Below the pieces are notes generated by a model, which saw only the letters and a program-made list of their open reading frames with translations, was not told where the DNA came from and made no database searches. A program made the translations under genes and the position numbers. From Hyphomicrobium facile (lineage in GTDB: Bacteria; Pseudomonadota; Alphaproteobacteria; Rhizobiales; Hyphomicrobiaceae), in NCBI RefSeq assembly GCF_900116175.1, contig NZ_FPCH01000003.1, positions 620,001 to 684,000 of the forward strand: a DNA stretch of 64,000 nucleotides, in the 5' to 3' direction. Below are positions 5,451 to 53,680 of the stretch, piece by piece. Each line of letters begins with the position of its first letter. The stretch's first letter is position 1.

Positions 5451-5555
5451 GAGCGCTTCCGGTCCTGATAGTATCAGGACCGGCGCTCTATCTCTTTGTT
5501 TCATCGCATTTTCTATACGCAAACCGGTGCCCCACTTTGCCTGAAAATGCTCTAG
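5451..5555. repeat. Palindromic repeat element, long copy (copy A)
   Basis: Two hairpins make up this element. The first is a perfect 12-bp inverted repeat CCGGTCCTGATA / TATCAGGACCGG (5459-5470 and 5472-5483), extended by GAGCG/CGCTC on the outside. The second spans 5506-5550 with arms GCATTTTC and GAAAATGC, followed by TCTAG. The second half recurs at 8112-8171 and 46205-46263. From memory, sequences of this kind are abundant in Hyphomicrobiales genomes. Reading the minus strand gives the peptide pattern GTGLRIENAMKQ, comparable with the other copies. Confidence 0.8.
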
Positions 5556-7449: not shown

Positions 7450-8121
7450 TTATCCCTCCGTCCTTGGGTTCAACGCTTTGAGCAACACAACACGGCCGCC
7501 CTCTTCCGTAACGCTTGGAATCAGCTCAAAGGCAAACTGCCAGTCTTGAGCTGCATTCTCGATTTCAGCCGTTACCTCACGGCCCTTCAAGAACATGCCA
7601 AGCGTAGAAGACGCAAAATAAGGTGCCGCGATCTCGACCAGCCGAGAGAGTGGAGCAAGAGCGCGCGCGGTAACGCAGTCGGCCTTGCCTACCTTAGCGT
7701 GAGTCTCGGCATTTTCGATCCTCATGCACTGGATGTCCACAGCAACGCGGGTCTGGCGGGCAACCTCCCGCAGAAATGCGGCTTTCCGGCTGTCGCTCTC
7801 GACCAGGATATGGCGCGTCCCGCCGGTTTCGGAAGCCATGATCGCCAGGACGAGGCCCGGAAAACCGGCGCCGGACCCGAGGTCGAGCCACGTACGGGCG
7901 CCTTCCGGCCGGTACTGCCAGAGCTGGGCACTATCGGCGAAATGACGGTGCCAGATCTCGTCGAGCGTGCTCGGCGCGACGAGGTTGATCGTTTTCTGCC
8001 AGCGTTTGAGAAGGGCTGCGTAAGTCTCTAGCTTTTCACGGACTTCACGTGAAATTCCGAAACGCCGCTGAAATTCTTCCGGGGTATCGATGCGCGGCAG
8101 GGCCGTAGCTATTTGTTTCAT
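7450..8121 (-). CDS. rsmG: 16S rRNA (guanine527-N7)-methyltransferase RsmG
   Basis: The 223-residue protein is RsmG (GidB), which methylates G527 of 16S rRNA. The SAM-binding motif WLDLGSGAGFPGLVLAI starts near residue 78. NLVAPSTLDEIWHRHFADSAQL before it is highly typical of the family. I chose the ATG at 8121 (protein starts MKQIATALPRID) because the longer frame to 8211 runs back through mnmG. The start codon itself is supplied by the palindromic repeat copy B, whose other end supplies the mnmG stop. No clear ribosome binding site other than AAAGAAAA is seen. The coding sequence also contains a weak parS-like core at 8041-8056, within the ISREV residues. Confidence 0.93.
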   Translation of the reverse strand: MKQIATALPRIDTPEEFQRRFGISREVREKLETYAALLKRWQKTINLVAPSTLDEIWHRHFADSAQLWQYRPEGARTWLDLGSGAGFPGLVLAIMASETGGTRHILVESDSRKAAFLREVARQTRVAVDIQCMRIENAETHAKVGKADCVTARALAPLSRLVEIAAPYFASSTLGMFLKGREVTAEIENAAQDWQFAFELIPSVTEEGGRVVLLKALNPRTEG

Positions 8122-8171
8122 CGCATTTTCTTTACGCAAACCGGTGCCCACTTTGCTCGAAAATGCTCTAG
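8112..8171. repeat. Palindromic repeat element at the mnmG-rsmG junction (copy B)
   Basis: This is a 60-base copy of the repeat family, with arms GCATTTTC (8123-8130) and GAAAATGC (8159-8166). It differs from copy A at only a few positions in the shared half and lacks the second, GGTCCTGATA-type hairpin. On the minus strand its CTAG end (8168-8171) supplies the TAG stop of mnmG, and its CAT at 8119-8121 supplies the rsmG ATG. It therefore fills the whole intergenic gap. Confidence 0.85.
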
Positions 8172-45856: not shown

Positions 45857-46771
45857 TTACGGCTGGTTGCGCGCGGATTTGCGCAGCGGGAATGCCTGAA
45901 TTTCGTCCGGCGCGAAGCCGGTTTCCCAGTCCACCAGATGGGGCAGCAGATGATCGCTGCCGCGGGAGACCTCGAGCGTTCGCCGCACGCCCGCGATGGC
46001 GTATCCGAGCGCTTGGCTCGGCGATTGTCCAAGCATCAGCTTGGCCGTCAAGCAGCCTGCGAAAATATCGCCGGTGCCGTGGGGAACATCGTTCCATTTG
46101 GCGACGCTGCCGATGAATGCCTCGTCACCGGCGACGAGCACGGTCGCCAGTTGCGACGGTCCGTCCGGTATCGACGTGCCGGCGACGATCGGGCGGATAG
46201 GTTGTTTGTCTGTCGCGTTTTCTTCACGCGAACCGGTATCCACTTCGCTCGAAAACGCTCTAAGCCTGCAAATCGCTTCAAGGGCATCCGCTCGGGATCT
46301 GACGTCGATCCCGGAGAGCCAGGAAAGCTCGAACCGGTTCGGCGTCAGGACGTCGGCGAGGGGGAGCAACAGGTCACGGGTCGCGCTTGCTGCCTGTTCG
46401 TCGATGTAATGGCCTTTCGGATCATCGCCAAAGATCGGGTCGCAAATGTAAGTCAGCGCGGCATTCGATCCCCGCATGCGCTTGACGGCTGCGGCGACGA
46501 TTTCGACGTGCCCGGCGGACGGGAGATAACCCGAGAAGACGGCATCGAAATTTCCGAGCCAGCCATTTTTCTCGAGCGCCCCGATCATATTGCCGAGAAG
46601 GGCCGGATCGAGCGTCATGCCGGCGATATGGGGCCGTATCGGGTGGTTCGAGAGGACGACCGTCGGCAATCCCACGACCTCGATGCCGGCTTGCTGCAGG
46701 GGCGGCATCGTGGCGGTCAGCCCCACGGGATCGCGGGCGACGTATGAGGAAATCATCAGGATTCGGGACAT
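45857..46771 (-). CDS. pdxY: Pyridoxal kinase PdxY with an in-frame repeat-derived insert
   Basis: The 304-residue protein is a PdxY-type pyridoxal kinase, salvaging pyridoxal to the 5'-phosphate. The N-terminus ILMISSYVARDPVGLTA and YICDPIFGDDPKGHYI are typical. The anion-hole GTGDIFAGCLTAKLM near the C-terminus holds the catalytic Asp. Residues 170-190 are encoded by the palindromic repeat copy C and have no counterpart in the known family, which is normally around 285 residues. The insert lies in a loop before the IVAGTSIPDG segment, so activity may be kept. Orientation is away from the mcl gene. Confidence 0.9.
   Translation of the reverse strand: MSRILMISSYVARDPVGLTATMPPLQQAGIEVVGLPTVVLSNHPIRPHIAGMTLDPALLGNMIGALEKNGWLGNFDAVFSGYLPSAGHVEIVAAAVKRMRGSNAALTYICDPIFGDDPKGHYIDEQAASATRDLLLPLADVLTPNRFELSWLSGIDVRSRADALEAICRLRAFSSEVDTGSREENATDKQPIRPIVAGTSIPDGPSQLATVLVAGDEAFIGSVAKWNDVPHGTGDIFAGCLTAKLMLGQSPSQALGYAIAGVRRTLEVSRGSDHLLPHLVDWETGFAPDEIQAFPLRKSARNQP
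46205..46263. repeat. Palindromic repeat element inside pdxY (copy C)
   Basis: Arms GCGTTTTC (46214-46221) and GAAAACGC (46251-46258) flank a core that aligns with copies A and B (TTCTTCACGCGAACCGGT is related to TTCTTTACGCAAACCGGT). It is one base shorter than copy B at the CAT/TG position. In frame with pdxY it encodes RAFSSEVDTGSREENATDKQ, comparable with [19 protein letters not shown] from copy B. Confidence 0.85.
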
Positions 46772-51748: not shown

Positions 51749-53596
51749 ATGTCGGCAGCGAATGGCAAAGCCAATGGTGCGATTGCCGCGCCTTCCCAGG
51801 TCGGCAAGGCCTATCCCGTACAGGATCATGTCTACGACGTCGTCGTTGTCGGCGCGGGCGGCGCGGGACTTCGCGCCACGCTCGGCTGTGCCGAGGCGGG
51901 ACTTAAAACCGCGTGCGTGACGAAGGTTTTTCCGACCCGTTCGCACACCGTCGCGGCGCAAGGCGGCGTTGCCGCTGCGCTCGGCAACATGGGTCGCGAC
52001 GACTGGCGCTGGCACATGTACGACACCGTCAAGGGCTCCGATTGGCTCGGCGACCAGGACGCGATTGAATATCTTTGCCGGAACGCTCCCGCCGCCGTTT
52101 ACGAACTCGAGCATTACGGCGTTCCGTTCTCGCGCACCGAAGACGGCAAGATCTATCAGCGGCCTTTCGGCGGCATGACCACCGATTACGGCGAGGGTCC
52201 GCCCGCGCAGCGCACGTGCGCCGCCGCCGATCGCACCGGTCACGCGATGCTGCATACGCTCTACGGCCAGTCACTCCGGCAGTCGGCCGAGTTCTTCATC
52301 GAGTATTTCGCGCTCGATCTGATCATGGATCGCGACGGGGTTTGCCGGGGCATCATGGCGCTCAATCTCGACGACGGCACCGTGCATCGTTTCCGCGCGA
52401 AGAAGACCATTCTCGCGACGGGCGGATATGGACGTACGTATTTTTCGTGCACATCGGCGCATACGTGCACGGGCGACGGCAACGCGATGGTTCTGCGCGC
52501 CGGCCTGCCGCTTCAGGACATGGAATTCGTGCAATTCCATCCGACCGGAATTTACGGCGCGGGCGTGCTGATTACGGAAGGTGCGCGCGGCGAAGGCGGA
52601 TATCTCACCAACTCGAAGGGCGAGCGCTTCATGGAGCGTTACGCGCCGCACGCGAAGGATCTCGCGTCGCGGGACGTCGTCTCGCGCTCGATGACGATCG
52701 AAATTCGTGAGGGCCGCGGCGTCGGTCCGGAAGCAGATCACATCTATCTGCATCTCGACCATCTCGATCCGAAAATTCTAGCCGAGCGTTTGCCGGGAAT
52801 CACCGAGAACGCGAAAGTCTTTGCCGGCGTCGATCTTCGCCGTCAGCCGATCCCCGTGCTGCCGACGGTTCATTACAACATGGGCGGCATACCGACGAAT
52901 TATCACGGTGAAGTCCTGACCAAGAAGGACGGCGATCCAGATCACGTGGTGCCGGGCCTGATGGCGATCGGCGAAGCGGCGTGCGTATCGGTGCATGGCG
53001 CCAACCGCTTGGGCTCGAACTCGCTGATCGATCTCGTCGTCTTCGGTCGCGCGGCCGGGCTTCGCTGCGCGGAGACGATCGAATCGGGCGCGTCGCAGCC
53101 CGATATGGCGAAAGACGCCAACGAGCCGGCGCTCGCGCGGCTCGACCGCTTCCGTTACGCCAAGGGCTCAACGCCGACGGCGGCGCTCAGGCTCCGCATG
53201 CAGAAGACCATGCAAGCGAACTGCGCGGTGTTCCGCGACGGACCGGTGCTGAAAGAGGGCGTCGAGAAGATCAATGCGGTGTGGCGCGACGCTGCCGACA
53301 TTTCGGTCACGGATCGTTCGCTCGTTTGGAATTCGGACCTCGTCGAAACGCTCGAGTTCGACAACTTGATCTCGCAGGCTGCGGTGACGGTCGTCGGGGC
53401 GGAGAACCGCAAGGAGAGCCGGGGCGCACACGCGCGCGAGGACTATCCGAAGCGCGATGACGTCAACTGGATGAAGCACACGCTCACCTGGGCCGATTAC
53501 GCGACGAAGACCGTCAAGATCGACGACAGGCCGGTGCATACCAAGACGATGACCAACGAGGTCAAGTACATCGAGCCGAAGGCGCGGGTTTATTAA
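51749..53596 (+). CDS. sdhA: Succinate dehydrogenase flavoprotein subunit
   Basis: The 615-residue protein is SdhA, with covalently bound FAD, oxidising succinate to fumarate. [20 protein letters not shown] is the FAD motif, and [21 protein letters not shown] contains the His to which FAD is attached. [18 protein letters not shown] and [18 protein letters not shown] are catalytic-site signatures. The C-terminus ends YIEPKARVY. It is normally followed directly by sdhB. Here a 199-residue unknown gene lies between. Confidence 0.97.
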
Positions 53597-53680
53597 GCGG
53601 TTCTGGATGGCGCGAGTACAAATAGCGCCGTCACGGGAAGTCGCCTATGGTGCGGCCGCTACTCAGGAGGCGCATCAGGC

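Follow-up and report, generated by a model that had tools for sequence, protein, structure and literature searches.

How does a protein gene come to carry, in frame, a palindromic repeat that also lies between genes, and what has become of the gene and of the repeat since? The question is raised by a pdxY-like pyridoxal kinase gene in a stretch of 64,000 nucleotides (G000:C3:620001-684000, hereafter the window) of the genome of Hyphomicrobium facile, labeled G000, which is 4.4 Mb long. The answer that we consider very probable is that a repeat whose family spans the order was inserted into a tolerant connector of pdxY, much as the palindromic RPE of Rickettsia are inserted into genes, and was retained there as near-neutral cargo.

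The insertion in pdxY

The gene occupies positions 45857..46771 of the minus strand and encodes 304 amino acids. Its assignment to the pyridoxal kinase family is based on matches to the models TIGR00687 (145.6 bits, for a cut-off of 144.5) and PRK05756, the latter below the cut-off of that model; the protein also scores below the cut-offs of the other equivalog models. Its solved relatives include 2ddm and 5b6a, it shares 94% identity with the pdxY of a Hyphomicrobium MAG, and it retains the stretch PHGTGDIFAG, to which we presume a role in this kinase family.

Residues 171-191, the 21 amino acids RAFSSEVDTGSREENATDKQP, are encoded by an in-frame insertion of 63 nucleotides at 46199..46261 of the minus strand, delimited by protein and DNA alignments and by the comparison of filled and empty sites. 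A homologue was found in 53 of 60 genomes, and the alignment consists of the 30 that have a locus, the own genome included (L001 is a contig identical to one in G020). Four of these 30 genomes, G000, G002, G020 and G015, have the 21 residues, and the 26 others lack exactly these. The DNA of ten of them was compared: four are filled and six are empty, and the extra DNA falls cleanly between ...AICRL and RPIVAG.... In the protein, the join lies after ALEAICRL and before PIVAGTS, the exact edge being ambiguous by a few bases in the alignment. The family model described in the next section places this copy, called copy C, from TA to TA at 46198..46262 (minus strand), with a score of 84.5 bits obtained with copy C itself in the training set, and the flanks CTTAG...CCTAG surround it in two of the four carriers. 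A sequence-only reading of the locus had announced a palindromic repeat in frame inside pdxY, and the empty sites confirm it; the positions it gave, 46205-46263 and residues 170-190, point to the right site with edges that are up to two codons off.

The frame of the host was preserved because the net gain of 63 nucleotides is divisible by three, and because at least one frame of the repeat on the same strand has no stop codon. As for the place of the insertion in the fold, the alignments with PDB relatives are good as far as the join, where they end or drift; we take the join to be the passage from a helix to the next beta strand. A model computed by AlphaFold from two sequences, the protein of the window and one relative, had a pLDDT of 36 and was not used. 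We propose that a short palindromic repeat entered pdxY at this presumed connector, that the reading frame survived, and that 21 residues were gained where the protein could tolerate them. The kinase would have remained functional, and its gene has stayed under purifying selection; the added peptide would be near-neutral cargo, and its hairpin has begun to decay in some carriers.

A repeat family of the order

The consensus of the family, TAGAGCRTTTTCNNGCRAAGTGGNNACCGGTTYGCGTNNAGAAAAYGCGAYNAAACAAANAG, is derived from alignments, and single copies depart from it. The repeat is about 61-63 nucleotides long and combines a nested hairpin with an A-rich tail. With related copies counted separately, 6 and 7 of 15 sequences have G-C instead of A-U, changed on both sides, at two pairs of the stem. 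When the three copies of the window named A, B and C are folded as single-stranded DNA and compared with shuffled sequences, the z-scores are -6.2, -3.1 and -3.9. None of 200 shuffles folds as well as copy C as DNA, and two of 200 do as RNA, with a z-score of -2.9. The hairpin folds in all four carriers, at -10.2 to -13.6 kcal/mol as DNA, the piece from G015 having been cut a few bases off register. Outside the training set of the model, the copy found at another site, E, of genome G013 is 96.5% identical to copy C over 57 nucleotides; moreover, the family pattern has three matches in the own genome, and none when it is read backwards. Since this DNA match, the pattern with its reversed control, and a folding better than that of shuffles all agree, the resemblance of copy C to the repeat family is beyond chance.

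With a covariance model, at least five copies are found in G000. Matches occur in at least 13 of the 22 genomes of the genus, where up to 150 first-look candidates were scored per genome and the training set held copy C and two other pdxY copies, and in at least 34 of a sample of 61 genomes from the whole order, where up to 86 candidates were scored per genome and the own genus is represented by G000 and G001. Plasmid matches amount to 72 records, 29 of them covering at least 80% of the query; by genus, there are 42 records of Sinorhizobium, 21 of Rhizobium, 4 of Bradyrhizobium and one for each of five others, and among the matches listed those on Sinorhizobium plasmids are partial, 33 nucleotides long. 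A set of 226 sequences, mostly Hyphomicrobium loci, contains 153 sequence-distinct copies, and 68 come from 60 loci that belong to four more genomes of this order (G089, G070, G046 and G051). The family is order-wide and mostly intergenic.

The arrangement of copies in G089 deserves a separate mention. Locus L255 contains, at about 600-815, repeat copies in a head-to-tail tandem, three complete and one partial. On the 4.8-Mb contig of the same genome, a pattern representing one subfamily finds copies nearly all in one orientation, 37 forward and 3 reverse, spread along the contig, with 0 in the backward control; the GC skew of the pieces is too weak to mark replication arms.

Besides the site in pdxY, five sites (A, B, D, E and F) vary in the same way, some genomes carrying the repeat and others having an empty site, with six or seven genomes for each; at site E the repeat is present in G013, and the other six genomes of the comparison are empty. 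Across these six sites no target-site duplication is consistent: a duplication of TA or CTAG, hinted at by copies B and C, does not hold over the six. A Y1 transposase of the RAYT type (PF01797) is absent from 21 of the 22 genomes of the genus, G000 among them, and G021 is the only one that has it; the control for this search was positive in 5 of 14 named genomes. The repeat would have moved as a unit, presumably through an enzyme acting in trans.

Copies at gene junctions

Copy A, at 5489..5554 on the minus strand, lies outside genes, and a second palindrome follows it at about 5453-5491. The stretch 5453-5554 of the window can be described as copy A joined to this second palindrome (GGTCCTGAT...ATCAGGACC). 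Because second palindromes come after several copies elsewhere too, the family looks mosaic. With copy A between genes and copy C inside a protein, the view that a single family occupies both kinds of place is upheld.

Copy B, at 8106..8170 on the minus strand, lies exactly between mnmG and rsmG in G000, G002 and G018; the junction is short and has no repeat in nine other genomes, and is not readable in G001. The copy itself provides the stop codon TAG of mnmG, at 8168-8170, and at 8119-8121 an ATG whose frame is that of rsmG. As the sequence-only reading stated, this copy is open in a frame that it shares with copy C. The RsmG protein likely starts at the ATG inside the copy, a choice of start that we infer, and therefore only the tail of the repeat would be coding there. 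On plasmids, an ABC permease of Rhizobium and a helicase of Xanthobacter are annotated as ending with the TAG of the repeat, and one Rhizobium plasmid record has a gene of the opposite strand that begins with an ATG inside the repeat. By providing neighboring genes with stop and start codons where they meet, the family has a quieter route of shaping genes.

A sequence related to the repeat, though diverged from it, is also seen at about 53596-53612 of the window, downstream of the stop of an open reading frame of 615 amino acids (51749-53596) that we take to be sdhA-like; this relative is present in G013, G015, G020 and G016, and absent in G000, G002 and G018.

Reading frames that cross a copy

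Reading frames were counted if they have at least 140 amino acids and cross a copy that is preceded by 45 or more residues and followed by 30 or more. The set of 226 sequences yields 59 rows and 44 distinct frames, and Pfam was run on 30 of these frames; the set of four genomes yields 21 rows and 20 distinct frames, all scanned; the 14 unscanned among the 64 distinct frames comprise 7 that are pdxY or its antisense, in the own and other genomes. The test misses frames cut by the ends of loci, short proteins, and proteins that have no Pfam domain. Among the 50 scanned frames, pdxY is the only one in which an enzyme domain runs through the copy: Phos_pyr_kin extends over residues 87-278 of an open frame of 315 amino acids. 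This single case among 50 does not bear out the proposal of an element that itself evolves as a mobile repeat coding for peptides.

Several candidates were set aside. In L196, FMN_dh begins about 19 residues past the copy; in L302, DAO begins 5 residues past it, and Pyr_redox_2 and Pyr_redox_3, below their cut-offs, begin inside its last residues; in L275, DJ-1 comes after the copies. In all three the copies are read as upstream or N-terminal. The matches in L204 and L202 were not counted, since what they cover is the repeat itself in tandem copies: Pentapeptide_3 scores 25.7 and 28.0 bits for a cut-off of 27, and DUF3924 scores 23.1 and 22.2 bits for a cut-off of 21, so that three of the four matches pass. 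Some plasmid repeats are seemingly in genes. Four of the 72 records were examined: in H3, H4 and H30 the annotated gene shares only the repeat's first bases, and H31 has no annotation.

Evolution of the gene and of its insert

The distribution of the insert is patchy. Both mnmG and the 8-kb segment around pdxY make sisters of G015 and G013, with G018 next, and place G000, G002 and G020 in another group; pdxY taken alone supports the pair G015-G013 at 0.997, and its placement of G018, at 0.346, is unsupported. The insert is found in the group of G000, G002 and G020 and in G015, and is lacking in the sister genome G013 and in G018. The common tail of the four inserts is more alike than in the other copies seen, L051 and L059 coming near, so that a single origin appears likely from these sequences, which then calls for a transfer or for precise loss on two occasions. 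The insert was lost twice or moved between lineages; two insertions are less likely.

Between G015 and, respectively, G020, G000 and G002, the inserts differ at 4, 5 and 7 of their 63 positions. Windows of pdxY average 13.5, 14.3 and 14.8 differences, and those as similar as the insert are 0, 0 and 1.4% of 791; in the 8-kb segment, 7, 13 and 26% of the windows are as similar. These figures lean towards a transfer of the insert that would be younger than the split of the species, although no flanking tract is significant. A recombination tract in G015 was considered, since in the last 25 nucleotides upstream of the insert G015 matches G020 at 23 of 25 positions, versus 18 of 25 for its sister G013, and was rejected: the discordant sites are unclustered, the upstream 45 nucleotides contain 1 of them, and 28% of windows have as many. 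The low divergence of the insert weakens the explanation by near-neutral cargo, because an old single insertion under plain neutral descent does not predict it. A bolder reading, which we consider rather unlikely, is that of a reversible edit of the protein: the 21 residues would have been precisely removed, in G013 and G018, or passed between species, always at the same fixed site, the agent being recombination or some enzyme. If this were true, one protein would gain and lose a peptide coded by a repeat over short evolutionary times.

For the pairs G000-G002, G000-G020 and G002-G020, the insert has 5, 2 and 5 nonsynonymous changes, and 1, 1 and 0 synonymous ones. The changes are few, and they give no sign of constraint at the level of the peptide; the idea of an element evolving through its peptide finds no excess constraint here. 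On the other side, synonymous changes affect 0-1 of about 14 sites in the insert among close carriers, versus 20-27% of the synonymous sites in the body of the gene, which argues, with small numbers, against plain neutrality.

This scarcity of synonymous changes is what one might expect if the inserted peptide, or else the mRNA hairpin, were now functional, in regulation, stability or interaction, and kept by selection. Such a co-option would also agree with a hairpin still foldable in all four carriers, and with a divergence between G015 and the group of G000 that is below that of 98.6-100% of the pdxY windows. However, 12 of the 14 changes among close carriers, summed over the three pairs, are nonsynonymous, and the copies of G002 and G020 have broken stem pairs: they hold three of the five broken-pair cells in the alignment of 15 copies, of which the pdxY copies are three. 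Furthermore, 7-26% of the surrounding 8-kb windows are equally similar, and G013 and G018 manage without the insert. We thus hold co-option to be improbable.

Outside the insert, pdxY is under purifying selection among its three closest carriers: the dN/dS ratios of the three pairs among G000, G002 and G020 are 0.117, 0.134 and 0.116, and those of the pairs against G015 range over 0.14-0.20. If pdxY were a decaying pseudogene, in which the insertion would be harmless, one could understand a score that is barely above the cut-off of TIGR00687 and under those of the other equivalog models, but ratios of 0.12-0.13 among carriers and a full-length open frame in all four largely refute this possibility, to which we give a very slim chance. 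The same ratios, in a host gene still under selection, sustain the likening to RPE made in the sequence-only reading. Finally, connector length varies in the kinase family, and L031 has another insertion nearby, but an ordinary lineage-specific expansion of the loop, merely resembling the repeat, is refuted by the 96.5% identity over 57 nucleotides of DNA to an intergenic copy and by a hairpin and a tail that stand in register with those of the other copies, and deserves practically no credence.

Comparison with known systems

The insertion of a repeat into pdxY, kept as near-neutral cargo, has its nearest counterpart in RPE, palindromic repeats that lie both between genes and, in frame, within them, where they read as peptide (PMC10969869). 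Copy C, too, is a hairpin palindrome, in frame, in a gene under selection; the likeness is one of features. RPE are about 150 nucleotides long and belong to Rickettsia, whereas copy C has 63 nucleotides and belongs to another bacterial order; RPE have many in-frame insertions in unrelated genes, whereas the Hyphomicrobium repeat has one case inside a domain among 50 frames scanned.

Other short palindromes, the REPs, are in part located inside coding genes of several species; some of those tagged GTAG/CGTC give the neighboring gene its TAG stop codon, and RPE-4 and RPE-6 correspond to CGTC-tagged repeats (PMC3733652). The Hyphomicrobium repeat is likewise a short palindrome, in a gene, and gives a TAG stop. 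In none of the 15 aligned copies does GTAG precede the unit, and in none of the 15 is CGTC at either end of it; CGTC occurs just downstream in three of the 15, where the second palindrome starts, and also inside some diverged copies. The Y1 transposase, lacking in 21 of the 22 genomes of the genus, is a further difference from the GTAG type.

The same order has intergenic palindromes, RIME (Rhizobium-specific intergenic mosaic elements) and Bru-RS of Brucella. RIME are mosaic, and the Hyphomicrobium repeat, with its second palindrome, looks mosaic too. One of the diverged copies, L091, has a partial match to RF02599, an sRNA model from Brucella, with 41.7 bits (E = 4.6e-8), far below the gathering score, and the copies of the window give no match to RF02599. 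Like MITEs, the repeat is short, non-coding, and mobile by the evidence of empty sites. Over the six sites its target-site duplication is not consistent, flanks of CTTAG...CCTAG being seen around copy C in two carriers, and no parent transposase was identified.

In the part of the literature that was accessible to the search, the repeat family was not found reported in Hyphomicrobium or in pdxY, and in a text search its six core words occur in three unrelated papers only. In-frame palindromic inserts are already known from RPE and REPs, and the pdxY case is a further example. It extends this kind of insertion to Hyphomicrobium, a free-living genus. As the empty sites of close relatives are clean, one can test directly what the insert does to an enzyme that is simple and assayable, and the patchy distribution makes the loss or the transfer of such inserts testable as well.
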